A stretch of DNA of 64,000 nt from Paenarthrobacter aurescens TC1 (GTDB taxonomy: Bacteria; Actinomycetota; Actinomycetes; Actinomycetales; Micrococcaceae): assembly GCA_000014925.1 (NCBI GenBank), contig CP000474.1:620001-684000 (forward strand), given 5' to 3'. The notes beneath the pieces were generated by a model. It saw only the letters and a list, made by a program, of their open reading frames with translations, made no database searches and had not been told where the DNA came from. Positions 39,896-54,790 of the stretch are shown in pieces. The position numbers and the translations under genes were made by a program. The number at the start of each line of letters is the position of its first letter. The first letter of the stretch is position 1.

Positions 39896-40415
39896 CTGAA
39901 CCGAGGACGCTCTTTGCGGCGTCCCATAAGCCGATCTGGCAGCCATCCGTGCGGTTGAAGGAAGCGCTGACCTCCTTGCCATCCACGGAGCCGGTTACCT
40001 TGGCCGTTGCCGGGCCGCCGTACTGCATGGTGCAGGCCTGATCCGTCCGGGTGGGGGCCGGGCTCAGGAGGGAGGGGCTGTTCTTGAGTGCAGTGCAGGC
40101 CTCGGCCGCCGAGGGGTGGCTGCTCTCAGCTGCCGGCGCGCCGTTTGTGCAGACGAGCGTGAACATCTGGGGTGCCGCTTCCGGAGTTTCAAGGAGCGTG
40201 ATGGAGAGCTCCGCGTTCCCCTGTCCCGGCGCCGCCGAGGTGCTGGTGGGGGAGGCGCTTGGAGTTGCGGTGCTGCTTGGGCTGCTGGAGGTGGCCGACG
40301 ACGACGGCGCCTGGGTTGCGCTTCCCGTAGTACCCGGGGTGGGGCTGCCTGAGCATGCGGCGAGTCCGGCGACGGCCAGTACTGCCGGTAAGGGCCGAAC
40401 AAATCGCATGCGCAT
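39882..40415 (-). CDS. Subtilisin-inhibitor-like (SSI, I16) lipoprotein
   Basis: 177 residues. A lipoprotein signal (LPAVLAVAGLAAC) and a Ser/Pro/Thr linker (about 21-63) precede an SSI-like domain: LSITLLETPEAAPQMFTLVCTNGAPAAESSHPSAAEACTAL, then ACTMQYGGPATAKVTGSVDGKEVSASFNRTDGC. Four Cys residues match the two SSI disulfides, and CTMQY aligns with the SSI reactive site CPMVY (P1 Met kept). Probably a membrane-anchored inhibitor of subtilases such as the neighbouring S8 protease. Confidence 0.82.
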   Translation of the reverse strand: MRMRFVRPLPAVLAVAGLAACSGSPTPGTTGSATQAPSSSATSSSPSSTATPSASPTSTSAAPGQGNAELSITLLETPEAAPQMFTLVCTNGAPAAESSHPSAAEACTALKNSPSLLSPAPTRTDQACTMQYGGPATAKVTGSVDGKEVSASFNRTDGCQIGLWDAAKSVLGSDGGL

Positions 40416-40528
40416 CTAATCTCCTAAGTTGCATCCATTTTACGTGGCAGTTCCGGTGCCCGTCTCAAGGAGACCACTGAGGCTGTGCGCTTGGCTAGGG
40501 GCAACGCTGCCGGGTTTGTCCGGTTCGC

Positions 40529-40990
40529 CTAGTTGTTCCGCTGGGTGGCGGCGATCAGCCCGGTCATGGCCTGGTGGAGTTCAGCTACTTCTTCGCGGCT
40601 GAGTTGCAGGCGCTCGCGGATCTCGCCCGGAACAGCGGTGGCCTGCTCGCGGAGTGCGGCACCTTTATCTGTCAGCTTCACGGCCAACGCCCGCTCGTTG
40701 CCGGGTACGCGCTCGCGGGTGATCAGCTCGGCTTCCTCCAAACGCCTCAGCAAAGGGGAGAGAGTGGCAGGCTCGTGGAGGAGGCTGTCGCTGATGTCTT
40801 TCAGGGTCCGGGGGCTTCGTTCCCAGAGGGCCAGCATTACCAAGTACTGGGGATGGGTGAGTCCAAGGCGCTCCAGCACAGGCTTGTAGACGCCAACAAC
40901 ACTGCGGGAGGCCACGGTCAGGGCGAAGCACAGCTGGCGTTCCAGAAGGAGGTCGTCCGTCTCGGGGGTGGACTCATCAACGGCTGTCAT
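40529..40990 (-). CDS. MarR family regulator, OhrR-like
   Basis: About 153 residues. LLLERQLCFALTVASRSVVGVYKPVLERLGLTHPQYLVMLALWE matches the N-terminal helix of OhrR, including the reactive Cys (QLCFAL) that senses organic peroxides. The winged HTH follows (LKDISDSLLHEPATLSPLLRRLEEAELITRERV). A residue usually Tyr after FAL is Thr. ATG 40990 has AGGAGG at ideal spacing. Divergent from the small gene at 41107; TTAG-type repeats lie between. No ohr gene is in the window. Confidence 0.88.
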   Translation of the reverse strand: MTAVDESTPETDDLLLERQLCFALTVASRSVVGVYKPVLERLGLTHPQYLVMLALWERSPRTLKDISDSLLHEPATLSPLLRRLEEAELITRERVPGNERALAVKLTDKGAALREQATAVPGEIRERLQLSREEVAELHQAMTGLIAATQRNN

Positions 40991-41020
40991 GGCTGCCTCC
41001 TGTGCTCGCTGCCTCATCTA

Positions 41021-41068
41021 TTAGCGCACACCCGGCGATTAGTTAGTGCACTAATTATTAGCGTACTA
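41021..41068. promoter_or_regulatory. Triple TTAGYGYAC repeat, candidate MarR operators
   Basis: TTAGCGCAC (41021-41029), the perfect palindrome TTAGTGCACTAA (41043-41054) and TTAGCGTACTA (41058-41068) lie between the divergent MarR gene and the 41107 gene. MarR proteins bind such short palindromes, so autoregulation is likely. Confidence 0.7.
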
Positions 41069-41106
41069 TGGACTCATTGAACCGCCTAAAAGAGGAGTCG
41101 ATCCGC

Positions 41107-41331
41107 GTGGCCAAGGAATCCTTCACTCGGAAATTCATGCGCGCGACAGGGAAGTTCCGGATAATTTTCGGCCCCGCGCACAGCAGCTCCCTGGACCACG
41201 AGATGACCGACGCCAACCGGAAACTGCTCGCCCAGCGCCAGGCTGAGACGCAGCAATGGGAAACCCTCCGCCGGCCCGACGGCAGCACCTATGTGGTGCC
41301 ACGCAACCCGGAGGACAAGTCGCTGCGGTAA
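41107..41331 (+). CDS. Small protein of unknown function divergent from MarR
   Basis: About 74 residues: AKESFTRKFMRATGKFRIIFGPAHSSSLDHEMTDANRKLLAQRQAETQQWETLRRPDGSTYVVPRNPEDKSLR. Basic N-terminus, no membrane segment, no domain recognised. GTG 41107 has AGAGGAG about 9 bp upstream; ATG 41068 would give 13 more residues but sits inside the operator repeats. Probably the MarR-controlled gene. Confidence 0.65.
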   Translation: MAKESFTRKFMRATGKFRIIFGPAHSSSLDHEMTDANRKLLAQRQAETQQWETLRRPDGSTYVVPRNPEDKSLR

Positions 41332-41338
41332 ACCCGTC

Positions 41339-42244
41339 TCAGCGGGGGATTTCGGCGTTGGTTGAAGCGCCAAGAGCTACGGAAAAGTCCCGGGCAACCT
41401 TCGCGGCCAGCACCCCCGCTTGATCCAAATGCCGTCCAAACCGCTGCTTGGGCGCGCTGACATTGAAGGCTGCAACGACGCGTTGCTTGAAGTCGTAGAC
41501 GGGTGCCGAGACGCCCACTACGCCCAGTTCGAATTCTTCGTCCACCACCGCATAACCCTGCCGTCGGATGAGGTTGATCTCGGCGCGAAGGTCCTCGAAC
41601 GTTTGGATCTTGGACGTGAGGTCCCCTGTTGACGGGCTTTGGCCCGCTTGAAGCGCCAGGGGCGAAAGGTCCTGCCGATCAGGCCGAACCCCGGCCTTGG
41701 CTTCGGCGGTATGCGTGTCATACCAATCCTTCAGGGCGGCGTCGTCCCAGTCGCTGACGAGTACCCTGCCGGCTGATGTGCTCCAGGCGTCCACGCTGAC
41801 ACCTTCCCAGCCCAGCGCCCTATAGGTGTGATTGGACATTTCACTCTTGAGGGTCAGGACGGTGCCGCCGCGCAGCACGCAAAGGTGCGTTGTTTCGTGA
41901 GTAGCTGCCGACACCCGCTTGAGGTATTGTGCCGATGCGCTGACCATGCGAGCCTCGGTGGTCCGGGCAGCCAAGGCGTAGAGGCTGTGCCCGAGAGTGT
42001 AGAGCAGGCTCTCCGGGTCCCTGCTGACCAAGCCCGCTTCCGCCAGTGTGGCAAGTGTCCGGGACACTTGGGCTTTGTCCCGCCCGGTGATCTCGGCAAC
42101 CTTGTTTACTCCGAGCCCCCCTCCGGCCACGGCCTCCGGGGAGCCCAGGATCTCCAGCAGTTCCAAATCCCTGCGGAGGCCCGAGGAATTTCGCCTGGGG
42201 ATGGGTGTTCCGTTCACGGCTGGCTCCTTGGTTGTTCCGGTCAC
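41339..42244 (-). CDS. IclR family transcriptional regulator
   Basis: 301 residues. N-terminal winged HTH (LRRDLELLEILG ... GLGVNKVAEITGRDKAQVSRTLATLAEAGLVSRDPESLLYTLG) and the GAF-like IclR effector domain (THETTHLCVLRGGTVLTLKSEM, GWEGVSVDAWSTSAGRVLVSD, RRQGYAVVDEEFELGVVGVSAPVYDF). GTG 42244. Divergent from the importer and catabolic genes that begin at 42387, which it probably controls; the effector is likely the pathway substrate or an intermediate. Confidence 0.9.
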   Translation of the reverse strand: MTGTTKEPAVNGTPIPRRNSSGLRRDLELLEILGSPEAVAGGGLGVNKVAEITGRDKAQVSRTLATLAEAGLVSRDPESLLYTLGHSLYALAARTTEARMVSASAQYLKRVSAATHETTHLCVLRGGTVLTLKSEMSNHTYRALGWEGVSVDAWSTSAGRVLVSDWDDAALKDWYDTHTAEAKAGVRPDRQDLSPLALQAGQSPSTGDLTSKIQTFEDLRAEINLIRRQGYAVVDEEFELGVVGVSAPVYDFKQRVVAAFNVSAPKQRFGRHLDQAGVLAAKVARDFSVALGASTNAEIPR

Positions 42245-42386
42245 GCTCCGATCCTAACCGTCATGGCGTTGACATTTCAACAACATTCATTGCGCAAAAG
42301 GGAACGCCCCCTCTACGGTTGTGTCATGGCTCACGGAGATGTGGGCCCCGATCCTTACCCCCAATGAAGTGAAAAGGAGGATCACG

Positions 42387-43052
42387 TTGAACGACACCCT
42401 TCTGTCCGACCTTGGACAGTTCCTCGTCAAGAGATCGGCAGACATTGCCGAATCCGCCGCCCAGCACCTGGTGGTTGTCTTGGTTTCCCTGCTGATAGCA
42501 ACGGTCATCGGTGTGGGGGTCGGTGTCCTTGTGTGGAACAAGCCCATCAGCCGCTCGATGGCCATCGCCGGGGCCGGTGTTGGCCTGACCATTCCGTCCA
42601 TGGCGCTCCTGGCACTCCTTATCCCCGTGCTGGGACTCGGCTGGACTCCCACCGTTGTGGGTCTGGCCTTCTACGCGCTGCTCCCCATCATCCGCAACAC
42701 GGTGGTGGGGCTGCGCGAAGTACCGCCGGCAGTGTCCGAATCCGCATTGGGCATGGGGATGGGCACCGTGAAGACCCTGTTCCGGGTCCAGCTGCCCATG
42801 GCTTGGCCGGTAGTGCTCACCGGAGTCCGTGTTTCGGCCCAACTGTCCATGGGTATCGCAGCCATCGCTGCTTATGTGGGTGGTCCCGGTCTGGGCGAAA
42901 TGATCTTCAAAGGCCTGTCGAGCCTGGGGTCCAAGAACGCCCTGAACTTCGCCGTCGTCGGAACCGTCGGTGTCATTGTCCTTGCCCTGCTGCTGGATGG
43001 CGCGTTCGTGCTCATCCGCCGCGTTACTACCTCAAGGGGACTTCGTGTCTGA
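42387..43052 (+). CDS. Quaternary-amine ABC transporter permease (OpuCB-like)
   Basis: About 221 residues, six transmembrane helices and an EAA loop (REVPPAVSESALGMGMGTVKTLFRVQLPMAWPVVLTGVR). GSSG and KLGA-type features are those of OpuC/ProW permeases for betaine, choline and carnitine. Start: TTG 42387, with AAGGAGG 6-7 bp upstream; a longer frame from 42321 lacks an SD. First gene of the importer. Confidence 0.87.
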   Translation: MNDTLLSDLGQFLVKRSADIAESAAQHLVVVLVSLLIATVIGVGVGVLVWNKPISRSMAIAGAGVGLTIPSMALLALLIPVLGLGWTPTVVGLAFYALLPIIRNTVVGLREVPPAVSESALGMGMGTVKTLFRVQLPMAWPVVLTGVRVSAQLSMGIAAIAAYVGGPGLGEMIFKGLSSLGSKNALNFAVVGTVGVIVLALLLDGAFVLIRRVTTSRGLRV

Positions 43053-44061
43053 ATCAACAACCCCGGCCGCCGGCGCCCGGATCGTCCTCAAGGACGTCAC
43101 CAAGACCTACCCCGGTCAGGTGATTCCCGCCGTCGAATCCTTCTCCATGGACATCGCACCAGGCGAACTGATCATGTTCGTTGGTCCGTCCGGCTGCGGC
43201 AAGACCACCACTATGAAGATGATCAACCGGATCATCGAACCGAGCTCGGGCTCCATCACCATCGACGGTGAGGACGTCCTGTCCCTGAACCCCAACGAGC
43301 TGCGCCGTCGGATCGGCTACGTCATCCAGCAGATCGGCCTGTTCCCGCATATGACCATCGCGGAGAACATCTCGGTGGTGCCCAAGCTCCTGGGCTGGGA
43401 CAAGAAGCGCACGCGGGACCGCGTCGAAGAGCTGCTGGCCGTCGTCGAGCTTGACCCCAAAACGTTCGCCTCCCGCTACCCGCGCCAACTGTCCGGCGGG
43501 CAGCAACAGCGTGTTGGCGTTGCGCGGGCCTTGGCCGCGGATCCGCCCGTGATGCTCATGGACGAACCCTTCGGTGCCACGGATCCCATCACCCGGGAAA
43601 AGCTGCAAAGTGAATTCCTCCGCCTGCAGGAGAAACTGAGCAAGACCATCGTGTTCGTCACGCACGACTTCGATGAAGCGGTTCGGCTCGGCGACAGGAT
43701 CGCGGTGCTGTCCGAACGAAGCCAGATCGAGCAGTTCGACACCCCCGCGAACATCCTGGCCAATCCCGCCAACGATTATGTGTCCCAGTTCGTAGGACAC
43801 GGTGCCGCCCTAAAGCGGCTGGGACTCATCCCTGTGGGCCACGCGGCGCTGGGTCCGGCCGGGGGACAAACCGCCATGACCATAGGTGTGGACGACTCCC
43901 TGCGGGACGCGCTGGATGCCTTGGTGCTGTCCGGTGGCCTTCCCGTATCGGTCCTGGACCGGAACGGCAGTTCTGTGGGAACCATCGACATCGAACGAAT
44001 CTCCGCTGTCCTCGGCGCCGAAATTCTCCCGCCAGCCCTTGCCGGGGGAGTGCGGCCATGA
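43045..44061 (+). CDS. Quaternary-amine ABC transporter ATPase (OpuCA-like)
   Basis: About 338 residues. Walker A GPSGCGKTTTMKM, signature LSGGQQQRVGVARALA, Walker B PVMLMDEPFGATDP, H-loop VFVTHDFDEAVRLGD. The C-terminal region (about 240-338) contains a CBS-like regulatory part, as in OpuCA. GTG 43045 overlaps the permease stop by 8 bp and has GGGGA upstream. Confidence 0.88.
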   Translation: MSESTTPAAGARIVLKDVTKTYPGQVIPAVESFSMDIAPGELIMFVGPSGCGKTTTMKMINRIIEPSSGSITIDGEDVLSLNPNELRRRIGYVIQQIGLFPHMTIAENISVVPKLLGWDKKRTRDRVEELLAVVELDPKTFASRYPRQLSGGQQQRVGVARALAADPPVMLMDEPFGATDPITREKLQSEFLRLQEKLSKTIVFVTHDFDEAVRLGDRIAVLSERSQIEQFDTPANILANPANDYVSQFVGHGAALKRLGLIPVGHAALGPAGGQTAMTIGVDDSLRDALDALVLSGGLPVSVLDRNGSSVGTIDIERISAVLGAEILPPALAGGVRP

Positions 44062-44843
44062 CTGCGCAGGCAACGCGGGATCTGGCCACGTCCTTCGGCA
44101 CCGCCTCAAACCGCAAAGGCAAGTACTTCTCCTTCAAACGGTTCGGAACACCGCTGATCATCGTGGGCGCATTGCTGGCATTGTTCCTCTGGATCTCCTC
44201 GCTGACGCTCGATTCCATTGAGTTGCGCACCCTGAACTGGGACTACCTTGCCGATCGGACCAGGGAACACCTCCTGCTGACCGTCACGGCGTCCGCGATC
44301 GTGTCCCTGATTGCCATCCCGGCAGGTATTGCCCTGAGCAGGGTGCATTCCAAGGCTGTCCACGCAGTGGTGTTCGGGATTGCCAACGTGGGGCAGGCAA
44401 CACCCGCCATCGGCTTGGTGATCCTGCTGGCCATCGTGTGGAAGACAGGCTTTGAAGTGGCACTGGTAGGCCTGGTTGCCTACTCGGTCCTTCCTGTCCT
44501 CCGGAACACCCTGGTGGGACTCCAACAGGTTGACTCCAGCCTCACGGAAGCGGCCAAGGGCATGGGCATGCGTCCGCTGGAAGTGCTGGCCCGCATCGAG
44601 CTCCCTTTGGCCGTGCCGGTGATCATTGCCGGACTTCGGACCGCGCTGGTGTTCTGCGTCGGCGTCGCCACAGTGGCCACATTCATCAACGCCGGCGGCC
44701 TGGGCGACATGATCGTCAACGGCCTGAAACTCCAGCGCTGGCCCGTCCTCATCACCGGAGCCGTGGTGGTCTCCTGCATTGCCCTCACCATCGACTGGCT
44801 GGCAGGCCTCGCAGAGGACCTGCTCAAGCCCAAAGGCATCTGA
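44058..44843 (+). CDS. Quaternary-amine ABC transporter permease (OpuCD-like)
   Basis: 261 residues with a basic N-terminus and six transmembrane helices; EAA loop QQVDSSLTEAAKGMGMRPLEVLARIELPLAVPVIIAGLR. ATG overlaps the ATPase stop (ATGA). Second permease of the OpuC-type importer. Confidence 0.88.
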   Translation: MTAQATRDLATSFGTASNRKGKYFSFKRFGTPLIIVGALLALFLWISSLTLDSIELRTLNWDYLADRTREHLLLTVTASAIVSLIAIPAGIALSRVHSKAVHAVVFGIANVGQATPAIGLVILLAIVWKTGFEVALVGLVAYSVLPVLRNTLVGLQQVDSSLTEAAKGMGMRPLEVLARIELPLAVPVIIAGLRTALVFCVGVATVATFINAGGLGDMIVNGLKLQRWPVLITGAVVVSCIALTIDWLAGLAEDLLKPKGI

Positions 44844-44871
44844 CTTTTCCTACTTTCGCAAGGACAACATC

Positions 44872-45807
44872 ATGAAAAAACCCGCAATGACCCTCCTGGC
44901 CACCGGCGTGGCCGTGGCCCTCAGCCTCACAGCCTGCGGCGGCTCGGCCTCCTCCACGTCAAGCGGAGCCGGAAGCAACGAACTCGAAGGCCTCACCGGC
45001 GTGTTCGGTGCCAAGGACTTCTCCGAGCAGTTCATCCTGTCCCACATCACCAGCCAGGTCCTGAACGCCCACGGCGCAGACACCACCACCAACACCAGCG
45101 TGGTGGGCTCGGCCAACGTCCGCACGGCTTTCGAGACCGGCCAGTTCGCCGGCTACTGGGAGTACACCGGAACGTCCTGGATCACCTACAACAAGCAGAC
45201 CACGCCTATCAAGGACAAAACGGAGATGTTCAAGGCCGTGAAGGATGCCGATGCCAAGAAGGGCATTGCCTGGCTGGACCCCGCACCGCTGAACAACACC
45301 TACGCATTCGCCGTTCGCGAGGATAAGGCCAAGGAACTCGGCATCAAGAGCCTCTCGGACGTGGCCAAGCTTCCCGCCAGCGAGCAGACCTTCTGCGTGG
45401 AGAGTGAGTTTTCAACCCGCGACGACGGCTGGCCGGGACTGCGCAAAGAGTACGGTCTGAGCCCCGACGCCAAGGTCTCCATGCTTGACACCGGCGTCAT
45501 CTACACCGCCACCCAGAAGGGCCAGGACTGCAACTTCGGCGAAGTCTTCGAAACGGACGGCCGCATTCCCGCGCTGAAGCTTCAGGTCATGGAAGACGAC
45601 AAGAACTTCTTCCCGATTTACCAAGGTGCCCTCACTGTCAAGGCCGACATCCTCGCCAAGTACCCGGCCATCACGGACATTATGGCCAAGGTCTCCCCGA
45701 AGCTCACCACCGAGGTCATGCAGCAGCTGAACGCCAAGGCTGACGTGGATGGCGAAGACCCGGAAGACATTGCCAAGGAATGGCTCGAATCCGAAGGACT
45801 GATCTGA
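44872..45807 (+). CDS. Quaternary-amine binding lipoprotein (OpuCC-like)
   Basis: About 311 residues. Lipoprotein signal MKKPAMTLLATGVAVALSLTACGG, then the OpuAC/OpuCC domain: LTGVFGAKDFSEQFILSHITSQVL, FETGQFAGYWEYTGTSW, YAFAVREDKAKELGIKSLSDVAKLP. The aromatic residues YWEYTG fit a cation-pi cage for an N-methylated substrate. ATG 44872 with AAGGA upstream. Confidence 0.87.
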   Translation: MKKPAMTLLATGVAVALSLTACGGSASSTSSGAGSNELEGLTGVFGAKDFSEQFILSHITSQVLNAHGADTTTNTSVVGSANVRTAFETGQFAGYWEYTGTSWITYNKQTTPIKDKTEMFKAVKDADAKKGIAWLDPAPLNNTYAFAVREDKAKELGIKSLSDVAKLPASEQTFCVESEFSTRDDGWPGLRKEYGLSPDAKVSMLDTGVIYTATQKGQDCNFGEVFETDGRIPALKLQVMEDDKNFFPIYQGALTVKADILAKYPAITDIMAKVSPKLTTEVMQQLNAKADVDGEDPEDIAKEWLESEGLI

Positions 45808-45809
45808 AA

Positions 45810-46319
45810 ATGACTGAACAGCTTCAAATCGGCGAGTCCTTCATTGGGGACGGCGTCAACGCAGCGCACGTCAACACCGTACTGGGACACCGAAGCGGCC
45901 CCGCTGGAACCGCGTGGGCCACGGCTTTGGCATCACCGAGTGCCGGCCACGTTCCGTTCGTCGCCGTCCTCCGGCCCTCGCTTCCCGTGAAGCCGCTGAC
46001 GCTCTTCGTCACCAAGGCGGCGCCGTCCAACGACCAGCACGGCAACCTCATTTGGGGTGCAGCGCAGGCCGGCATCGCCGCAGGCGTGGCAGACGCTGTG
46101 GCCGACGGCATCCTCACGGACGAACAGGCCGATTCGCACGCGCTGATCGCCGCGGTGTGGGTGAACCCCAACGCCGACGACGACGACGCCGTCTACCGCA
46201 ATAACCGTGAGTCAGTCCGGACTGCTTTGGAGAACGGGGTCAAGAACCTTCCCTCCACGGCAGAAGTGATCGAGGCACGCAACTCCCCGTCCAACCCCTT
46301 CTTCACCCCGCGAGGCTGA
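45810..46319 (+). CDS. Formaldehyde-activating-enzyme (Fae) family protein
   Basis: 169 residues. GESFIGDGVNAAHVNTVLGHRSGPAG aligns with the N-terminus of Fae (GDGxxxAHxxxxxGxRGSP), including the catalytic His (His20 here, His22 in Methylobacterium Fae). LPVKPLTLFVTKA, WGAAQAGIAAGVADAVADGILTDEQADSHALIAAVWVNPNADDDDAVYRNNRESVRTAL completes the fold. Fae joins formaldehyde to tetrahydromethanopterin, a cofactor not expected here, so the true substrate may be another C1 or aldehyde reaction. Cotranscribed with the importer. Confidence 0.85.
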   Translation: MTEQLQIGESFIGDGVNAAHVNTVLGHRSGPAGTAWATALASPSAGHVPFVAVLRPSLPVKPLTLFVTKAAPSNDQHGNLIWGAAQAGIAAGVADAVADGILTDEQADSHALIAAVWVNPNADDDDAVYRNNRESVRTALENGVKNLPSTAEVIEARNSPSNPFFTPRG

Positions 46320-46324
46320 CAGCA

Positions 46325-47428
46325 ATGAAGATCACCGCAATCCGGCTGACCCGCATGGTCCTGCCCCTGGACCCGCCGTTCAACGCCGCTTGGGATCCTG
46401 AACCCCGCACATCATTCCCGGCAACTTTGGTGGAGGTGGAAACTGACGAAGGCATCACCGGCGTAGGCTCCGGCGACACGATGGATGGCTTCGAGGCCTA
46501 TGAGCACCTGTTCATCGGGACCGACCCTATGGCCATCCTCAACCAGGTCCGCAGGATCGAAACCATCAACTTCCACGGCGGCCGCTACTGGCCACTCGAA
46601 GCGGCGCTGTGGGACATCATCGGCAAAGTTGCCGGACTCCCGGTAGCTACTCTCTTCGGCGGAGCCCAGGATCGCCTGGTGGCCTACGCTTCCTCCGGCG
46701 AACTGAAGGCGCCCGCAGCGAGGGCCGAGTCTGCACTCGCGGCGAAGGAGCGCGGCTTCAAAGCCATGAAGATCCGTATTTCCCGGGACCACCTGGACCA
46801 AGGCGTGGAGTCCGTCCGCGCTGCCAGGGAAGCCGTGGGCAAAGACTTCGACCTGATGGTGGACCTCAACCAGATGTGGCGCATGAGCGGCGACATCGAA
46901 CCGGCCCTGGAACTTGCCAAAGTCCACCGACTCGCAGCCCAGCTGGCTGAACTGGATGTCCGCTGGCTCGAGGAACCACTTCCGCAGGCCGATATCAAGG
47001 GCGCACAGCGCGTGCGTGAGCAGACCGGCATCCAGGTCTCGGGAGGCGAGATGGTCCGCAGCATGCCGGAAATGATGGCCCTCATCGAAGCCGACGCCTA
47101 CGACATCTACCAGCCCGACGTCGCCCTGGCAGTTGGCATGTACCGCGCCCGCCAAGTGGCCGAAACGGCAAACCTGAAGCACCGCTTCTTCACACCGCAC
47201 ACGTGGAGCAATGGTTTGGGCTTGCTGGCCAACCTGCACGTAGCCGCAGGCGTGGACGCGGGGCCATACTTGGAATTCCCCTATGACCCGCCGGGCTGGA
47301 CCCCCGAGCGCCGCGACTTCTTCATGGAGCCCCTGGACATCGACGACGACGGTGCACTCCGCGTGCCCGACCTTCCGGGCCTGGGCGCCGTCATCGACTA
47401 CGACGCCGTCAAGAAGTACTCGGTCTAA
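46325..47428 (+). CDS. Enolase-superfamily (MR/MLE subgroup) enzyme
   Basis: 367 residues. The barrel carries KAMKIRI (catalytic Lys), DLMVDLNQMWR (Asp ligand), RWLEEPLPQ and ISGGE-like VSGGEMVRS (Glu ligands), and FFTPHTWSNGLGLLANLHVA with a His in the position used by dehydratases. Likely abstracts a proton alpha to a carboxylate: dehydration, racemisation or epimerisation of a hydroxyacid or betaine. ATG 46325 is 5 bases after the Fae stop. Substrate unknown. Confidence 0.83.
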   Translation: MKITAIRLTRMVLPLDPPFNAAWDPEPRTSFPATLVEVETDEGITGVGSGDTMDGFEAYEHLFIGTDPMAILNQVRRIETINFHGGRYWPLEAALWDIIGKVAGLPVATLFGGAQDRLVAYASSGELKAPAARAESALAAKERGFKAMKIRISRDHLDQGVESVRAAREAVGKDFDLMVDLNQMWRMSGDIEPALELAKVHRLAAQLAELDVRWLEEPLPQADIKGAQRVREQTGIQVSGGEMVRSMPEMMALIEADAYDIYQPDVALAVGMYRARQVAETANLKHRFFTPHTWSNGLGLLANLHVAAGVDAGPYLEFPYDPPGWTPERRDFFMEPLDIDDDGALRVPDLPGLGAVIDYDAVKKYSV

Positions 47429-47438
47429 GGAGCCCGCC

Positions 47439-48956
47439 ATGGCAACAACGAAGAACGACTGGATCGAGCGGGCGGCAGCCCAGCAGCCAGCCACGGGACT
47501 GTATATCGACGGCGGTTTCCGCTCCGCGCGCAGCGGTGAAACATTCCCCACTGTCTCGCCGAGGGACGGCTCCATCACGGCTCACGTGGCGGCAGCGGGG
47601 GATCAGGACGTGGACGATGCCGTCCGGTCCGCGCACCGTACTTTCGAAAGCGGCGTGTGGTCGAGGACCGATCGACGCCACCGGCAAACAGTCCTGACCA
47701 GGCTCTCGGACCTGATCCTGGAAAACCTCGAGGAACTCGCGCTCCTGGAGTCCACGGATGCCGGGCACCCCATCAGCGACGCACTCGCCGTTGACGTGCC
47801 CAGCTGCGCACGGACCTTCCGCTGGTACGCGGAAGCCCTGGACAAGGTCTACGACGACGTCGCACCCACTCCGCGCAACGCCCTCGCGGTCATTTCCCGC
47901 GAGGCACTCGGTGTGATCGGCGCAGTGGTTCCGTGGAACTATCCACTGATCATCACGGCCTGGAAAGTAGCTCCCGCCCTCGCCGCCGGAAACTCCGTGG
48001 TCCTCAAGCCCTCGGAGCAGACCAGCCTGACTGCGTTGCGCCTGGCCGAACTCGCCACTGAGGCGGGCGTGCCGGATGGCGTATTCAACGTCGTCCCCGG
48101 CCTCGGCCACGTTGCGGGTGCTGCCTTGGGGCGGCATGACCTCGTGGACAAGATCACCTTCACGGGCTCACCGGAGGTTGGGCGGTACTTCCAACGCTAC
48201 GCCTCCGAATCCAATGGCAAGCAGGTGGCGCTGGAGCTCGGTGGCAAGTCGCCGCAGGTGGTTCTTCACGACGTCGGAGACATCGCAGCCTGCGCTTCGG
48301 CTGTGGCCTGGGGGATCTTCTACAACGCCGGGCAGACCTGCCACGGAGGTTCCCGACTCCTGGTGGACGAACGCGTCCACGACGAATTGATCGAAGAAGT
48401 CATCAAGGTGGGGCGCTCGCTGCAGCTCGGCGACCCGCTGGATCCTGCCACCCAGATCGGGGCGATTATTGATGACCGGCAGCTTGAGAGCATCCTCGGC
48501 TACTACGCCGTCGCAGAAGGCGAGGGCATCGCGGTGGCCAGCGGCGGCACCCAAGTCCACCCTGCCGGCGTCGAACATGGCTACTACCTGGAACCCACGG
48601 TCCTGGACCGGGTCAACAACGCCGGCCGCATCGGCCAGGAAGAGATCTTCGGGCCGGTACTGGCAGTATCGACGTTCCGTGGCGCTGCGGAGGGCATCCG
48701 GATGGCCAACGACACCAAGTACGGGCTGGCTGCCAGCGTGTGGACGCAGGACATCACCAAGGCGCACACAGCCGCACGTGAACTCCGCGCCGGCACCGTC
48801 TGGGTGAACACCTTCGACGTCGCGGACATCATTACGCCCTTTGGCGGTTTTAAGGAATCCGGGTTCGGCAGGGACCGTTCCCTGCACGCCCTGGACGCCT
48901 ACTCCGCACTGAAAACAACCTGGATCAACCTGGGCGACGCTGCCCTGGACGACTGA
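47439..48956 (+). CDS. Aldehyde dehydrogenase
   Basis: About 505 residues. NAD(P)-dependent ALDH: VVPWNYPLIITAWKVAPALAAGNSVVLKPSEQT, ALELGGKSPQVV (general-base Glu) and NAGQTCHGGSRLL (catalytic Cys). Similar to betaine-aldehyde or gamma-aminobutyraldehyde dehydrogenases. ATG 47439 follows TAAGGAG; the longer frame starts inside the enolase gene and is spurious. Confidence 0.92.
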   Translation: MATTKNDWIERAAAQQPATGLYIDGGFRSARSGETFPTVSPRDGSITAHVAAAGDQDVDDAVRSAHRTFESGVWSRTDRRHRQTVLTRLSDLILENLEELALLESTDAGHPISDALAVDVPSCARTFRWYAEALDKVYDDVAPTPRNALAVISREALGVIGAVVPWNYPLIITAWKVAPALAAGNSVVLKPSEQTSLTALRLAELATEAGVPDGVFNVVPGLGHVAGAALGRHDLVDKITFTGSPEVGRYFQRYASESNGKQVALELGGKSPQVVLHDVGDIAACASAVAWGIFYNAGQTCHGGSRLLVDERVHDELIEEVIKVGRSLQLGDPLDPATQIGAIIDDRQLESILGYYAVAEGEGIAVASGGTQVHPAGVEHGYYLEPTVLDRVNNAGRIGQEEIFGPVLAVSTFRGAAEGIRMANDTKYGLAASVWTQDITKAHTAARELRAGTVWVNTFDVADIITPFGGFKESGFGRDRSLHALDAYSALKTTWINLGDAALDD

Positions 48957-48983
48957 ACCACCCAGCCTGAATTGAGACTCGAT

Positions 48984-49970
48984 ATGACTGCAACAACGCA
49001 CGTTTCCGCCACGGAAACACAACTCCTCACGCCCGGAACCGCCCGCATCGGCTTCATCGGCCTCGGCAACATGGGCTCGGGCATGACGCGCAACCTCCAA
49101 GCCGCGGGCTTTCACCTGGTGGTCAACGATGTCCGCAAGGAATCCGCGGCCGAACTCCTAGCGAACGGAGCGGAGTGGGCGGAGGACGCAGCGGCAGTCG
49201 CCGCCGGCTCCGATGTCGTCATCACCATGCTCCCCACGCCCAAGCACGTGGAGACGGTGGCCATGGGGCCCGGCGGCATCCTTGCCGGGATGCCCGACGG
49301 CGGCACCTGGGTGGACATGTCCACCTCGGTTCCGGAGGTGGCCAACAGGGTTCGCGAGGCGGGCTCAGTCCGCGGCATCCGCGTCCTGGACGCACCCGTC
49401 AGCGGCATGTCCGTAGGCGCTGCGAACGGCATGCTGCAGATCTTCGTCGGTGGCGAGCCTGCCGACGTCGAACGTCTTCGTCCCGTGTTCGAAGCTATGG
49501 GCGATCCTGAACGGATACTGCACGTGGGCGGCCATGGCGCCGGCTACGCGGTGAAGCTCATGATCAACCAGCTGTGGTTCTCGCACCTGGTGGCCACCGC
49601 GGAGGTCCTGAGCACAGGCGTCAAGGCGGGTGTGGACCTGGAAGTCCTGAGGCAGGCGCTGATCGCCAGCCCGGCGAACTCCAACTTCGTCCAAAACGAT
49701 GTCCTGTCCATCCTCAACCACGGCGACTACGACGAAGGCTTCGCGATCGCCTTGGCCTGCAAAGACCTTGGCTTGTCCGTGGACCTGGCCCGTTCCGTTG
49801 GAGTTCCCATGGAGTTGTCCGGCTTGGTGGAGCAGCTCTACCGCCGGGCCAAGGCTCTTTACGGCGACAAGGCCGGGGAGATGACCCCGGTAAAACTTTA
49901 CGAAGACGCTATCGGCATCCAGTTGCGGACGCCCGTGCAGGCCTCCGGCAGCGCCACGGAAGGAGCTTGA
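48984..49970 (+). CDS. 3-hydroxyisobutyrate-dehydrogenase-like NAD(P)-binding enzyme
   Basis: About 328 residues. RIGFIGLGNMGSGMTRNLQAAGF (dinucleotide fold), LDAPVSGMSVGAANGMLQIFVGG, GHGAGYAVKLMINQLWFSHL with catalytic Lys. Family members oxidise beta-hydroxyacids to semialdehydes (HIBADH, tartronate semialdehyde reductase). ATG 48984 is preferred over 48972; no strong SD. Confidence 0.9.
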   Translation: MTATTHVSATETQLLTPGTARIGFIGLGNMGSGMTRNLQAAGFHLVVNDVRKESAAELLANGAEWAEDAAAVAAGSDVVITMLPTPKHVETVAMGPGGILAGMPDGGTWVDMSTSVPEVANRVREAGSVRGIRVLDAPVSGMSVGAANGMLQIFVGGEPADVERLRPVFEAMGDPERILHVGGHGAGYAVKLMINQLWFSHLVATAEVLSTGVKAGVDLEVLRQALIASPANSNFVQNDVLSILNHGDYDEGFAIALACKDLGLSVDLARSVGVPMELSGLVEQLYRRAKALYGDKAGEMTPVKLYEDAIGIQLRTPVQASGSATEGA

Positions 49971-49975
49971 CCATC

Positions 49976-51163
49976 ATGCAGACACGTATGCAGATCCACG
50001 CTGAACTGGCCTCCACGGAGCTGACGCTGGATCCGAAGCCCACCGCCTACTTTGGGCGGGGCCGCGTGGTTGAGATTGGAGGGATTGTCGCTGCCCTCGG
50101 CGCGAAATCCGCCCTGATTGTCACGGACCCTTTCCTTGCCACCACAGACGTCGTAGCGGCCGTGCGGGAGTCCCTGGAAGCAGCCGGGCTCTCCGTCAGC
50201 GTGTTTGACGGCGTCACGCCCAACCCGACCACCACGTGCGTGGATGCGGGTTCGGACCAGGCCGCGGCATCCGGAGTCGATGTACTGGTGCCTGTTGGCG
50301 GGGGATCGTCCATGGACGCAGCAAAGGGCATCTCGCTGGGTGCCGTGAACCCGGCCCGGGGAGCGGGACTGGACTACAGCAACCACTTTGAGAACCCGGC
50401 GCTGCCTATTGTTGCCGTGCCCACCACTGCCGGCACCGGTGCCGAGGTCAATGCTTTCGGGGTGGTCACGGATGTGGAAGCGCACCGCAAGTTCTATGTC
50501 GGCCACGAATCGGCGCTACCCAAGGCCGCGGTCCTGGATCCTGAGCTGACCCTTGGGCTGCCGCCGAAGGCTACCGCGGCCACCGGCATGGATGCGCTCA
50601 CGCACGCCATTGAGTCCTACTCGTCCATCCGGCAGAACCCGTACTCGGACGGCATTGCCCTTCAGGTGGTCTCCATGGTGGCCGAGTTCCTGCCCCGCGC
50701 AGTGGCCGACGGCAGTGACATCGAGGCGCGTTCGCAGCTGCTCCTGGCCTCACACATTGCGGGCGTTGGCTTCTCCCACACCGGTCTGGGCCTGGTGCAC
50801 GCCATCGCCCACCCGCTGGGCGGCCGTTTCAACATCCCGCATGGCCTGGCGCTGTGCCTGGTGATCGAGGACGTCCTTCGCCTCAACCTCCGCAACCGGC
50901 TTGACCGGACCGCGCGGCTCGCCTTCGCGCTGGGTGTCGGAGACACTGCGGCCACGGTCGAACAAAACGCGGATGCCGCCGTCGAGGCTGTTGCCACGCT
51001 GGCGCGGGAGGTGGGCATGACAGCCCGACTTACCGACTTCGGCGTGACTGAAGCCGACCTCGACTCCCTCGTGGAGGACACCTTGGCGGACTCGGTCATC
51101 AACAACACCCCGGTGCCGCCCACCGCCGTCGAAATCCGCACGATCCTCGAGAAAGCGCTCTAA
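49976..51163 (+). CDS. Iron-containing alcohol dehydrogenase
   Basis: About 395 residues. VDVLVPVGGGSSMDAAKGIS binds NAD; VPTTAGTGAEVNAFGVV; metal ligands in GMDALTHAIESYSS (Asp/His) and GLVHAIAHPLGGRFNIPHGLALCL (His, His). Type III Fe-ADH; reduces or oxidises an alcohol/aldehyde pair. ATG 49976 with AGGAG upstream. Six bases after the previous stop. Confidence 0.93.
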   Translation: MQTRMQIHAELASTELTLDPKPTAYFGRGRVVEIGGIVAALGAKSALIVTDPFLATTDVVAAVRESLEAAGLSVSVFDGVTPNPTTTCVDAGSDQAAASGVDVLVPVGGGSSMDAAKGISLGAVNPARGAGLDYSNHFENPALPIVAVPTTAGTGAEVNAFGVVTDVEAHRKFYVGHESALPKAAVLDPELTLGLPPKATAATGMDALTHAIESYSSIRQNPYSDGIALQVVSMVAEFLPRAVADGSDIEARSQLLLASHIAGVGFSHTGLGLVHAIAHPLGGRFNIPHGLALCLVIEDVLRLNLRNRLDRTARLAFALGVGDTAATVEQNADAAVEAVATLAREVGMTARLTDFGVTEADLDSLVEDTLADSVINNTPVPPTAVEIRTILEKAL

Positions 51164-52663
51164 GTGGAAAACACCCTGACTTTTGATACGTCCGCTCTGA
51201 CAGGCGCCGAGCGGACGTTCGTCGAGTCCCTGCCCACGCAGCTTTACATCGACGGCCAGTGGACAGACGCGTCCGACGGCGGGACGTCCGTTGTTGAGGA
51301 CCCCTCCACGGGCGCTGTGCTCACCAGGATCGCTGACGCGACTCCCGCTGACGGCCACCGTGCGTTGGAAGCTGCTGCCCGCGTCCAGGAATCCTGGGCG
51401 GCAACCCCGCCTCGCGAACGAGGAGAAATCCTCCGCAGGGCGTTCGAGCTGGTCACGGCCCGGGCCGAGGACTTCGCCCTGGCGATGACACTCGAGATGG
51501 GTAAGCCGTTGGCCGAGTCCCGGGGCGAAGTGGCGTACGGTGCCGAGTTCCTGCGCTGGTTCTCCGAGGAAGCGGTGCGGGTTTCGGGCCGCTACTCCAC
51601 GGCACCGGACGGCAAGTCCCGTCTGCTCGTGACCAAGCGCCCGGTGGGCCCGTGCCTGTTCATCACCCCGTGGAATTTCCCGTTGGCCATGGCCACGCGG
51701 AAGATCGCCCCGGCCATTGCCGCCGGCTGCACCATGGTCCTCAAACCGGCCAACCTTACTCCGTTGACGGCCTTGTTGTTCACTCGGGTCCTGGAGGAAG
51801 CAGGCCTTCCGGCGGGCGTCCTGAACGTCATTCCCACCACCCGCCCGGGCGACGTTACGGGGCCGCTCATCCGGGACAGTCGCCTCCGGAAGCTCTCGTT
51901 CACCGGATCAACCGGCGTGGGGCAGCAGCTCATCGCTGACTCTGCGCATCAAGTGCTCCGGACTTCCATGGAACTGGGCGGCAACGCGCCGTTCCTGGTC
52001 TTCGAGGATGCGGACCTGGATGCAGCGATTGATGGCGCCATGGTGGCCAAGCTCCGGAACATGGGGGAGGCCTGCACAGCGGCGAACCGGTTCATTGTCC
52101 ACGAATCGCTGGCTAGTGAGTTCAGCGAGCGTTTGGCGGAGCGGATGTCTTCTTTGGTGTTGGGGCGCGGGTCCGCGGATGGCACCAACATCGGGCCGCT
52201 CATTGATGCCAAGAGTCGCGCGAAGGTGGACGAACTGGTGACTGATGCCGTTGACTGCGGCGCGACAGTTTTGACTGGTGGGGCTCCATCGGACGGGGAG
52301 GGCTACTTCTACCCGCCCACCGTGCTGACGAACGTTCCCGCCTCAGCCCGGATCCTGCATGAGGAGGTGTTCGGTCCTGTGGCGCCCGTGGTCAGTTTCT
52401 CCACCGAGGATGAAGCGATCGCTTTGGCGAACGACACCGAGTACGGCCTGGTGGCCTACGCCTACACGCGGGACCTCAACCGCGGTATCCGGCTGTCCGA
52501 GAAAGTGGACGTGGGCATGTTCGGACTCAACACAGGCATCGTGTCCAACCCGGCGGCGCCGTTTGGCGGTGTGAAGCAATCCGGCCTTGGCCGCGAAGGT
52601 GGCACCGAGGGCATCGAGGAGTTCCTGGAGACCCGCTACATCGGTATCGCGGACCCCTCCTGA
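51164..52663 (+). CDS. Aldehyde dehydrogenase (succinate-semialdehyde type)
   Basis: 499 residues. GPCLFITPWNFPLAMATRKIAPAIAAGCTMVLKPA, MELGGNAPFLVFEDADL and MGEACTAANRF (catalytic Cys) match GabD-like ALDHs. GTG starts immediately after the preceding TAA. A second ALDH in the cluster implies two aldehyde intermediates. Confidence 0.92.
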   Translation: MENTLTFDTSALTGAERTFVESLPTQLYIDGQWTDASDGGTSVVEDPSTGAVLTRIADATPADGHRALEAAARVQESWAATPPRERGEILRRAFELVTARAEDFALAMTLEMGKPLAESRGEVAYGAEFLRWFSEEAVRVSGRYSTAPDGKSRLLVTKRPVGPCLFITPWNFPLAMATRKIAPAIAAGCTMVLKPANLTPLTALLFTRVLEEAGLPAGVLNVIPTTRPGDVTGPLIRDSRLRKLSFTGSTGVGQQLIADSAHQVLRTSMELGGNAPFLVFEDADLDAAIDGAMVAKLRNMGEACTAANRFIVHESLASEFSERLAERMSSLVLGRGSADGTNIGPLIDAKSRAKVDELVTDAVDCGATVLTGGAPSDGEGYFYPPTVLTNVPASARILHEEVFGPVAPVVSFSTEDEAIALANDTEYGLVAYAYTRDLNRGIRLSEKVDVGMFGLNTGIVSNPAAPFGGVKQSGLGREGGTEGIEEFLETRYIGIADPS

Positions 52664-53343
52664 TGCTTCGTTTACTTGTGACGGGCGGCACCAGCGGGAT
52701 CGGTGCCGCCCTGGTCAGGGAGTCCTTGCGGGCCGGGCATTCGGTGTTCGCCACGGGCCGTGACCCTGTGAAACTCGCAGCGTTCCTTGAGACATGCTCC
52801 GGCCTGGGTCATGTTGGTGGTGTGGTGGCAGATGCCGGCGACTGGGAGCAGACCCGGGATGCCGTTTCCGCAGCGCATGAGTTCCTTGGCGGCATCGACG
52901 TCGCCGTGGCAAACGCCGGGTTCTCCGCGGCCGGTGATCTCTCCGACGGCGACCCGGACCAATGGCGGCACATGGTCCTCACCAACGTCTACGGCCCCGC
53001 AATCCTGGCCAAGGCCGCCCTGCCGCAACTCCTGGAGAACCGTGGACACATGGTACTGATCGGCAGCACGGCAGGGAGGAAGGTATATCCCGGAAATCTG
53101 TACACCGCCACCAAATGGGCCGTGACCGGGTATGCGGAGTCACTTCGCCAACAGTTGGTGGGGACAGGAGTGCGGGTGCTCCACATCGCGCCGGGCCATG
53201 TAGACACCCCGCTGTGGAAAGAAGCACCGGATGCTCTCATCCCGCCCGAGTCCGTGGCTGGGACCATGCTGTGGGCTCTGACCCAGCCACCCGGCGTCGA
53301 CGTTTCAGAAGTCATGGTCCGGGCGACCGGCCAGGCGTTCTAG
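52663..53343 (+). CDS. Short-chain dehydrogenase/reductase (SDR)
   Basis: 226 residues. LLVTGGTSGIGAALVRES (TGxxxGIG), VAVANAGFSAAG (NAG), and the active-site IGSTAGRK ... LYTATKWAVTGY (Ser, Tyr, Lys). Classical SDR; probably oxidises a secondary alcohol. Start overlaps the ALDH stop by one base. Last gene of the cluster. Confidence 0.92.
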   Translation: MLRLLVTGGTSGIGAALVRESLRAGHSVFATGRDPVKLAAFLETCSGLGHVGGVVADAGDWEQTRDAVSAAHEFLGGIDVAVANAGFSAAGDLSDGDPDQWRHMVLTNVYGPAILAKAALPQLLENRGHMVLIGSTAGRKVYPGNLYTATKWAVTGYAESLRQQLVGTGVRVLHIAPGHVDTPLWKEAPDALIPPESVAGTMLWALTQPPGVDVSEVMVRATGQAF

Positions 53344-53442
53344 CCCGCCTCAGGCCGCGCCTTTTTCCCTCAACGGGCGTAAAATTGCCTCACTGATTGG
53401 CACTCGCTTTTTCTCTCTCCGGTAGGGAAGGAGGTGGAAAAC

Positions 53443-53673
53443 ATGGGACGCAGAATGGAAGGCTTCGTCCATGTGACCGAGCGGCTGCAGTCCGTTTTTG
53501 GACCGGCAACCCACGGCGATACGGACGGCCCTGTGGTGCACAAGCACGATGATTTCGAGACCGCTTCCGAGGCGGATCTGAAGAACTTCGACGTCGAGAC
53601 CGACTCTGAGGGCCATCACTACGCAGTCCGGAACAATGATCCCGGGCCAACCAGCACCGACTACAGCCTTTAA
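53443..53673 (+). CDS. Small acidic protein of unknown function
   Basis: About 76 residues: GRRMEGFVHVTERLQSVFGPATHGDTDGPVVHKHDDFETASEADLKNFDVETDSEGHHYAVRNNDPGPTSTDYSL. Acidic and hydrophilic, no membrane segment. ATG 53443 has AAGGAGG about 7 bp upstream. No domain recognised. Confidence 0.7.
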   Translation: MGRRMEGFVHVTERLQSVFGPATHGDTDGPVVHKHDDFETASEADLKNFDVETDSEGHHYAVRNNDPGPTSTDYSL

Positions 53674-53690
53674 AAAGGCGTGAGATGCCG

Positions 53691-53718
53691 AAGGGCCGGA
53701 CCGCGAACTCCGGCCCTT
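53691..53718 (+). terminator. Terminator
   Basis: AAGGGCCGGA (53691-53700) pairs with TCCGGCCCTT (53709-53718), followed by CCTTACG; ends the small acidic gene. Confidence 0.85.
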
Positions 53719-53782
53719 CCTTACGTGCAGACCGGCACGGCGCCTTGACCCTGATTCCCTTACAGTGCCACTGTTGAGCAAC

Positions 53783-53800
53783 TAATCAGCATGCTTATTA
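53783..53800. promoter_or_regulatory. AGCATGCTTA-containing inverted repeat
   Basis: TAATCAGCATGCTTATTA is an 18-bp inverted repeat with one mismatched pair, 43 bp before the LapA-like ATG. The AGCATGCTTA core matches the site at 30850-30861. Confidence 0.5.
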
Positions 53801-53843
53801 TGTGAGTAGTACGGTAAATGCTGGTCTACAGAGGGGGCCTTCC

Positions 53844-54227
53844 ATGAGTTTCCAAGATGATGCAGCAAGCGTACCGAACAGCTCCGCCCGTCCGGATCGA
53901 GGTAGTTCCGAGCGCCGGAAACCAGTAACCCCGACGCCCTCGTCAGGCCACGACAGGCCAACCCGCACCGCCGCCCTGTGGGTGGCAGTAGCCGTTGGTT
54001 TGGTGGTCCTGGTGATGCTCATCGTGTTCTTCGTCCAAAACCAGGACATGATCACGGTCCGGTTCTTTGGGCTGGAGGGGACGCTCGCACTCGGCACCAC
54101 GCTGTTCATAGCGGCTGTAGGTGGCGGCGTGCTGGTGGCGCTCGCAGGAGGCGCCCGCATCCTTCAGCTGAGGATGAGCAACCACCGCCGCAAAAAGGCC
54201 GTTGGTGGGCCGGGCGTGGCCCCTTAG
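53844..54227 (+). CDS. LapA/DUF1049-family membrane protein
   Basis: About 127 residues. Two transmembrane helices (AALWVAVAVGLVVLVMLIVFFVQN and GTTLFIAAVGGGVLVALAGGARIL) around NQDMITVRFFGLEGTLALG, the LapA domain signature; basic C-terminal RMSNHRRKKA. ATG 53844 with GAGGGGG upstream. Role in envelope assembly is suggested for the family. Confidence 0.85.
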   Translation: MSFQDDAASVPNSSARPDRGSSERRKPVTPTPSSGHDRPTRTAALWVAVAVGLVVLVMLIVFFVQNQDMITVRFFGLEGTLALGTTLFIAAVGGGVLVALAGGARILQLRMSNHRRKKAVGGPGVAP

Positions 54228-54234
54228 ACCTGTT

Positions 54235-54278
54235 AATTGCGGAAGGACCGGAGCGCTTGCTCCGGTCCTTCCGCAATT
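54235..54278. terminator. Perfect 20-bp hairpin terminator, copy A
   Basis: Arms 54235-54254 (starting AATTGCGGAAGGACCGGAGC) and 54259-54278 pair perfectly around loop GCTT. Its 32-nt core 54241-54272 is identical to 59384-59415. It lies between the convergent LapA-like and DUF4193 genes. Confidence 0.95.
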
Positions 54279-54335
54279 TAATCCCGACGGCGGCACTCCC
54301 TGACGATGTTAAGTCCGCCGGGGTGTTGTGTCGTC

Positions 54336-54635
54336 TTAGCCTTCGCAGTCAGTGCAGTAGGCGACGCCATCTTTTTCGCGTGCGATCTGCGAGCGGTGGC
54401 GAACCAGGAAGCAGGAGTGACAAGTGAACTCGTCGTTTGCCTGCGGAATGACCTGGATGACCAGTTCTTCGGCGACGATTTCGCCGCCGGGGCCGTTGGC
54501 GTCGAGGCCATCGGTTTCGTCCAGTTCAAGCACGACACTCTTGGCCGTGGGAGCGCTGGCGGACTGGAGAGCCTGGAGGGACTGCTCCTGGTTCTCTTTT
54601 ACATCGGTACGGAGTTCGTCGTAATCGGCTGCCAC
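54336..54635 (-). CDS. DUF4193 zinc-ribbon-like protein
   Basis: 99 residues: YDELRTDVKENQEQSLQALQ, AEELVIQVIPQANDEFTCHSCFLVRHRSQIA, GVAYCTDCEG. Two CxxC pairs form a probable zinc ribbon. A family characteristic of Actinobacteria, function unknown. GTG 54635 with AGAGG upstream. Confidence 0.92.
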   Translation of the reverse strand: MAADYDELRTDVKENQEQSLQALQSASAPTAKSVVLELDETDGLDANGPGGEIVAEELVIQVIPQANDEFTCHSCFLVRHRSQIAREKDGVAYCTDCEG

Positions 54636-54790
54636 TTTTTAATGCCTCTTCGTGTTAGGGGGTTACCGGGTATGCAACGTACAGCATGCCACGAAAATTC
54701 CATACCATACCCCAGTTCTACAGCTTGTGGCGAAAACCACGTGGGTGGCGGCCAAAAAAATCCGCCACCCACGGTCATTTCGCCTCTGTG

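Follow-up and report, generated by a model that had tools for sequence, protein, structure and literature searches.

A distinct clade of Fae-fold proteins in a conserved bacterial operon, probably for betaine-type uptake and catabolism

What does a homologue of the formaldehyde-activating enzyme (Fae), a marker of methanopterin-linked one-carbon (C1) metabolism, do in an operon made up of a betaine-type importer and a series of dehydrogenases? The question is raised by positions 41339..53343 of a 64,000-nucleotide stretch of Paenarthrobacter aurescens TC1 (contig CP000474.1, positions 620,001 to 684,000; 'the window' means this whole stretch). Several sources label proteins of this type 'tetrahydromethanopterin hydro-lyase' or 'formaldehyde-activating enzyme', and such C1-style labels would suggest a C1 pathway for which two genes, mch and ftr, are missing. 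We call the protein FaeX. Our answer is that it belongs to a distinct Fae-fold clade and that the conserved operon around it probably serves betaine-type uptake and catabolism. In its broad form, a regulated catabolic operon for a zwitterion or amino compound with a non-methanopterin Fae-fold protein, this answer is highly probable; the whole reading, an inducible operon for a betaine-type zwitterion with a coenzyme-free FaeX step, falls slightly short of an even chance. With so compact an operon in culturable Arthrobacter-type strains, the role of Fae homologues outside methylotrophs can be tested directly, and the repertoire of soil and other bacteria would be extended by a route that degrades osmolytes or amino compounds.

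A sequence-only reading of the window had described twelve genes with minimal spacing, among them five oxidoreductases (two aldehyde dehydrogenases, a HIBADH-like enzyme, an iron-dependent alcohol dehydrogenase and a short-chain dehydrogenase) and a betaine-type importer. All twelve were found, and their families were confirmed by Pfam and NCBIfam profile scores set against the family cut-offs; a ProV-type ATPase, two permeases and an OpuAC binding protein stand together in the one operon. The IclR gene is on the minus strand and the other 11 are on the plus strand, where the spacing runs from an 8-base overlap up to 28 bases. The host genome (5.23 Mb, three contigs) has one Fae-family gene. 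The features are as follows.

41339..42244, minus strand: IclR-family regulator (IclR_C 84.9 bits, HTH_IclR 29.2 bits)
42268..42284, plus strand: probable IclR operator GTTG-N9-CAAC (motif conservation)
42290-42297, plus strand: palindrome TTGCGCAA, 3' of the operator
42321..43052, plus strand: ATP-binding cassette (ABC) importer permease 1, ProW-like (BPD_transp_1 72.9 bits)
43045..44061, plus strand: ABC importer ATPase, ProV/OpuCA type (TIGR01186 333.6 bits, cut-off 326.6)
44058..44843, plus strand: ABC importer permease 2 (BPD_transp_1 82.7 bits)
44872..45807, plus strand: betaine-type binding protein (OpuAC 196.3 bits)
45810..46319, plus strand: FaeX, Fae-fold protein of the non-methanopterin clade (PF08714 176 bits, cut-off 27; TIGR03126, one_C_fae, 155.4 bits, cut-off 118.05)
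46325..47428, plus strand: enolase-superfamily (MR/MLE) enzyme (MR_MLE_C 171.7 bits)
47439..48956, plus strand: aldehyde dehydrogenase 1, ALDH1 (Aldedh 529 bits)
48984..49970, plus strand: HIBADH-family beta-hydroxyacid dehydrogenase (NAD_binding_2 157.9 bits, plus NAD_binding_11)
49976..51163, plus strand: iron-dependent alcohol dehydrogenase, Fe-ADH (ADH_Fe_C 184.3 bits)
51164..52663, plus strand: aldehyde dehydrogenase 2, ALDH2, SSADH-like (TIGR01780 548 bits, cut-off 646.35)
52663..53343, plus strand: short-chain dehydrogenase (SDR), an optional member (adh_short 138.4 bits)

Is FaeX a Fae in the C1 sense? Residues were compared between 49 FaeX-type rows and seven canonical Fae rows (that of M. 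extorquens, whose numbering is used, and six from plasmids, two of them identical); the canonical genes of Azoarcus and Phyllobacterium adjoin mch. His22, Lys71 and Gln88, which we take to be the catalytic residues of Fae, are retained in 49/49 FaeX-type rows, His22 presumably being the proton donor of the Fae structure work. Asp24, which we assume from the same work to be a pterin contact, is Asp in all seven canonical rows but Asn in 48 and Thr in one of the FaeX-type rows. Further switches affect Phe49 (His in 47/49), Gln79 (His in 48/49), Phe84 (Trp in 46/49), His121 (Asn in 38, Asp in 11) and Trp122 (Pro in 48/49), and other positions differ too. The equivalents in the window protein are His20, Asn22, His47, Lys69, His77, Trp82 and Gln86. 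This residue signature cleanly separates the FaeX clade from canonical Fae, and in the tree the seven canonical rows split from all others at 100/100 support. The predicted model of FaeX has the Fae fold. Set beside canonical Fae (PDB 1Y5Y/1Y60), FaeX lacks the pterin-site aspartate, carries many aromatic and histidine switches, falls in a separate clade and sits in a different operon, in genomes without mch and ftr.

Neither the residue counts nor the tree include the truncated copy L097_3732, and the tree also omits loci L050 and L004. The second Fae-family gene of a Caballeronia plasmid (L089:66-599) is very divergent, and its catalytic-His region does not align; this gene was excluded from the counts and retained in the tree, where it falls within the FaeX clade on a very long branch. 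The label 'canonical', considered for this gene, was not borne out by that placement.

Tetrahydromethanopterin had been called absent from typical Micrococcaceae in the sequence-only reading. Of the methanopterin genes, mch was found in none of 34 Fae-bearing genomes tested and ftr in none of 19, with archaeal controls positive for both; a profile search with PF09176 (Mpt_N) carries no weight, its controls having given no match. Because of the residue switches, the separate clade and the missing mch and ftr, a methanopterin role for FaeX appears unlikely, and the idea that it is an ortholog of the C1 Fae was rejected on the same three grounds, with some room left for a divergent coenzyme pathway. 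The earlier suggestion that the Fae homologue captures or transfers a C1 unit fares poorly in view of the separate clade and the replaced pterin-site aspartate: C1 transfer by FaeX to a pterin would be the less likely reading, and C1 capture is the weaker part of the earlier proposal. A related possibility is that FaeX passes formaldehyde from an N-methyl or hydroxymethyl group to tetrahydrofolate or mycothiol. The retained catalytic His, Lys and Gln would suit it, as would the NAD methanol dehydrogenases that are the nearest solved relatives of Fe-ADH and a 2-oxoglutarate (2OG)-oxygenase-family gene, upstream of FaeX in some of the loci described below, that could be a demethylase. We nevertheless consider such C1 capture unlikely, given the replaced pocket aspartate and the missing mch and ftr; no demethylase family was found among the window operon proteins in the Pfam and NCBIfam scans, and the operon holds no C1-carrier gene.

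How widely is the gene set shared? Fae-family matches occur in 10/150 genomes of the same genus (own genome counted), in 10/394 of the class and in 17/396 of the phylum (own genome and one other counted in each); an order-level search found them in 4/297 genomes, two of them with weak partial matches (31-36% identity). Contigs of GTDB species gave 15 Fae loci in Arthrobacter, Pseudarthrobacter, Herbiconiux, Umezawaea, Lentzea, Leucobacter, Alpinimonas and Acidimicrobiia, four of which duplicated same-genus loci and were dropped, and the final set holds 51 loci. The closest named Fae proteins to FaeX come from Paenarthrobacter (95% and 90% identity). In other genomes the genes for importer, Fae and enzymes stand in the same order, with protein identities of 36-98%, so the gene set is not a product of chance. 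What had been called an 'island' is instead a widely shared operon with modular variants.

The Fae-enolase-HIBADH-Fe-ADH neighbourhood, proposed earlier as something to look for in other genomes, was found in 16/51 loci together with the importer and ALDH1 (12 of these 16 also have ALDH2) and in three loci of 9-Mb genomes with ALDH1 and ALDH2 but without the importer. HIBADH and ALDH2 occur without MR/MLE in 7/51 loci (five with importer, two without), and MR/MLE, ALDH1 and Fe-ADH in two (one with ALDH2). HIBADH is the sole partner in one locus and ALDH2 in six, five of which are plasmid loci with an aldo/keto reductase (AKR). Four distant loci have MR/MLE at 42-45% identity, one also with ALDH1; in L083-L086, FaeX is 38-40% and MR/MLE 42-45% identical to the window proteins. 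At least one operon enzyme gene lies near FaeX in 39/51 loci, the SDR gene in only 10/51. Some locus contigs stop early (e.g. L004 inside Fe-ADH), so absences at such loci are not evidence.

The evidence on AKR and MFS genes comes from a comparison of the plasmid loci. In Caballeronia (L089, L090, L093) and Burkholderia (L088) the order is FaeX, AKR, SSADH-type aldehyde dehydrogenase and MFS transporter, and in Ensifer (L091) AKR, FaeX and aldehyde dehydrogenase; FaeX of these loci is 49-52% identical to that of the window. The Caballeronia MFS protein matches the first MFS protein beside Leucobacter FaeX in two pieces (49% and 55% identity) and that of L053, an Arthrobacter relative, at 51%. 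S. clavuligerus megaplasmids have importer, FaeX, HIBADH and SSADH (one of 16 records examined). As a separate observation, the S. clavuligerus set (L087:1-10540) lies near a hybrid non-ribosomal peptide synthetase/polyketide synthase gene on the megaplasmid.

These combinations bear on two other roles for FaeX. As an aldolase or lyase, it would cleave off the terminal carbon of a 2-keto acid, releasing formaldehyde or a small aldehyde; the 2-keto acid would come from MR/MLE, by dehydration of a sugar-acid-like intermediate. MR/MLE does have the metal and His/Asp residues of acid-sugar dehydratases, the two proteins occur together even in the divergent L083-L086, and sugar-related genes lie near FaeX in a few loci (an FGGY sugar kinase and a GlcD-like FAD oxidase in L013, the oxidase in L010, the kinase in L029). 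However, seven loci have FaeX with HIBADH and ALDH2 but no MR/MLE, the Burkholderiaceae and Ensifer loci have it with AKR and aldehyde dehydrogenase, and the binding protein is of betaine type; we rate this role as quite unlikely. Alternatively, FaeX could be a non-enzymatic aldehyde sensor or carrier. One source proposes additional sensing, signalling or regulatory roles for Fae homologues and holds that the extra Fae copies of methylotrophs may serve other functions (PMC3728764). For FaeX, with its catalytic residues retained in every row and enzyme genes nearby in 39 loci, such a role seems very improbable.

Is the operon regulated, as the proposed IclR control implies? In 26/51 loci the surroundings of the Fae gene include an IclR homologue, always oriented divergently from whichever importer or Fae gene comes first. 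The strict motif GTTG-N9-CAAC occurs in 21 of these 26 intervals (0.06 expected from mononucleotide shuffles), although close relatives share descent and the count therefore does not amount to 21 independent cases; a relaxed form occurs in 24/26 (0.41 expected from the same shuffles). Among the five intervals without the strict motif, L012, L034 and L053 carry relaxed forms, and in L029 and L031 a strict operator lies just beyond the counted interval. A spacing of N8, our first guess, gave scattered matches only, N9 being correct. A longer form of the operator has one match in the own genome and is present in 10/11 Fae-bearing genomes tested, and the operators of Micrococcales, Pseudonocardiaceae, 9-Mb and 1.3-Mb genomes differ around the fixed half-sites. 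Three 9-Mb genomes have a second operator about 105 bp before a separately placed ALDH2 gene (L026:12218, L027:8857, L028:8812), and L029 has a further copy before its importer genes (L029:8401), which ties separate transcription units into one regulon. We infer from this conservation that the IclR protein binds GTTG-N9-CAAC; the operon is probably IclR-regulated.

What the importer takes up can be approached through its binding protein, whose solved relatives are OpuBC-derived sensors, OsmF, EgtUC, ProX and OpuCC. In an alignment from 13 of the 21 importer-bearing loci (residues numbered from codon 44869), K49, Y96, R184, F227 and Y251 are present in 13/13 proteins and Y145 in 12/13 (Phe in L087). 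By their spacing, we take K49, R184 and the four aromatics to be the Lys, Arg and cage residues of ProX. EgtUC and an H. pylori-type osmoprotection protein have both the Lys and the Arg, whereas in the engineered choline/nicotine-type sensors of the alignment the Lys is missing and the Arg site is taken by Lys or Gly. W188 and R232 do not vary in the family; where it has R232, the solved proteins aligned show Leu, Glu, Gln, Gly or Pro. Cage, Lys/Arg pair and family-specific R232 together suggest a ligand that is probably a zwitterion bearing a carboxylate and an additional acidic or polar group. The window importer thus shares components, cage and carboxylate residues with OpuC/ProX/OsmF importers and differs in its family-specific Trp188 and Arg232, its catabolic enzymes and its IclR regulator. 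Two cysteines, Cys176 and Cys221, are also invariant in the binding-protein family (window:44872-45807, same numbering) and possibly form a disulphide.

Among the matches listed, none of the six enzymes besides FaeX reaches an NCBIfam cut-off. The metal-ligand and His/Asp motifs of MR/MLE, which we take to be the Asp-Glu-Glu metal triad and His/Asp dyad of the MR subgroup, are retained in 28 locus copies (near-duplicates included); the second-base motif K149-x-R151 is KxR and not KxK, presumably the second base of that subgroup. The enzyme has metal-ligand motifs, GGE and PHxW in common with acid-sugar dehydratases and related MR/MLE cycloisomerases but is distant from them, with its KxR and its conserved WDPxPR and DPPxW motifs. 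Its best solved structure scores 123 bits and its best NCBIfam match 129.7 bits (cut-off 500), and the best 120 relatives listed have general names only, where named. For ALDH1 the best NCBIfam model among the matches listed is PuuC (542.7 bits, cut-off 850). The nearest solved structures are 2-hydroxymethylglutarate dehydrogenase and tartronate semialdehyde reductase for HIBADH, NAD methanol dehydrogenase and lactaldehyde reductase for Fe-ADH and, for ALDH2, an unnamed aldehyde dehydrogenase followed by seven SSADHs.

Could these enzymes simply belong to one of the established routes for degrading choline, betaine, carnitine, trigonelline or ectoine, into which a Fae gene has hitch-hiked? In Bacillus, GbsAB oxidizes choline by an Fe-ADH and an aldehyde dehydrogenase, and in the window the same enzyme types stand beside an OpuC-type importer. 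The window operon differs in adding Fae, MR/MLE and HIBADH, in missing the GbsB cut-off (271 bits against 550) and in having an IclR protein in place of what we take to be the GbsAB regulator, GbsR. Betaine-aldehyde and choline dehydrogenase models are likewise below their cut-offs among the matches listed, and the binding protein has the Lys and Arg missing from the engineered choline-type sensors. FaeX is kept beside an oxidoreductase and an SSADH-like aldehyde dehydrogenase across phyla, which does not look like hitch-hiking, and we find this explanation highly unlikely. The earlier statement that no betaine, carnitine or hydroxyproline-betaine pathway is known to use this gene set agrees with our literature search, which found no paper on it among the matches listed (titles and abstract openings, mostly open-access).

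Further clues to the chemistry come from variant neighbourhoods. In 8/51 loci FaeX is immediately preceded, on its own strand, by a gene of one particular family, which in most of them overlaps it or nearly does. Two members scanned with Pfam match HalD (2OG-oxygenase-type) above the cut-off, and one member has no solved relative by sequence. The eight genes are:

L016:1824-2660, HalD-like gene upstream of FaeX
L076:5541-6383, HalD-like gene upstream of FaeX
L077:9087-9917, HalD-like gene upstream of FaeX
L078:2774-3604, HalD-like gene upstream of FaeX
L079:1754-2593, HalD-like gene upstream of FaeX
L080:8970-9683, HalD-like gene upstream of FaeX
L081:10121-10987, HalD-like gene upstream of FaeX
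L082:10208-11002, HalD-like gene upstream of FaeX

A 2OG-oxygenase-family gene in this position fits a substrate hydroxylated next to a heteroatom. Elsewhere (L072:6212-13803), agmatinase-like, gamma-aminobutyrate (GABA)-permease-like and GABA-transaminase-like genes and a sodium symporter adjoin FaeX, and L073 and L075 have relatives of the agmatinase- and GABA-permease-like genes; these three loci may represent a version of the pathway for guanidino compounds or amines.

The gene set, operator motif, conservation, residue switches, predicted fold and missing mch and ftr are computational results; beyond them, we infer a substrate class, an order of steps and a chemistry for FaeX. The IclR protein would read GTTG-N9-CAAC and open the operon when substrate or product is present. 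The OpuC-type importer would then admit a small molecule that offers a cationic group to the aromatic cage, a carboxylate to Lys and Arg and probably a further acidic or polar group to Arg232. In a first module, Fe-ADH and ALDH1 would convert an alcohol into an acid, from which MR/MLE would abstract the alpha-proton, most likely eliminating a beta-substituent. In a second, HIBADH and the SSADH-like ALDH2 would lead from a hydroxy acid through a semialdehyde to a dicarboxylate, with AKR replacing HIBADH in Burkholderiaceae and Ensifer. FaeX, which accompanies both modules, would perform the opening half of the Fae reaction with no need of its coenzyme: His20, as general acid, would dehydrate or split a carbinolamine-, hydroxymethyl- or hydrate-type adduct, and the aldehyde product would be handed to the dehydrogenases. 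This carbinolamine/aldehyde role is favoured because the HalD-like and agmatinase/GABA neighbours hint at nitrogen compounds and at a carbon adjacent to a heteroatom, but the same neighbours show FaeX to serve more than one pathway. A coenzyme-free class of Fae-fold enzymes (aldehyde/carbinolamine hydro-lyases) in Actinomycetota and some Pseudomonadota, contributing a new step to an undescribed pathway that handles betaine-type or related amino compounds under its own IclR regulon, is a tentative proposal; the specific chemistry, coenzyme-free dehydration or splitting of an adduct, is more doubtful still.

Several points weigh against this reading. None of the enzymes encoded in the operon is an evident candidate for C-N bond cleavage or N-demethylation, and in 12/51 loci FaeX has no operon partner nearby. 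Some relatives have other transporters alongside (MFS, amino-acid permease, sodium symporter), and genes resembling agmatinase and GABA transaminase are added in one group; a substrate other than a quaternary amine would therefore be possible. The roles of Asp24 and of the cage residues are taken from the Fae and ProX literature, the latter matched by spacing and not by a ligand structure. Finally, the longer operator form is absent in one of the 11 genomes (G412) and has an extra site elsewhere in another (G497), and a reversed control of the pattern matched three times in the 11 genomes.

Rfam gave nothing at gathering scores in 40000-55000, and neither the sigma-70 scan (3 matches, shuffle mean 1.7) nor the terminator scan (6 matches, shuffle mean 9.3) showed a clear excess. 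Next door, on the minus strand at window:54791-58860, lie glycoside hydrolase family 3-like and MFS sugar transporter-like genes, judged by eye from the translation, which are probably unrelated to the operon.

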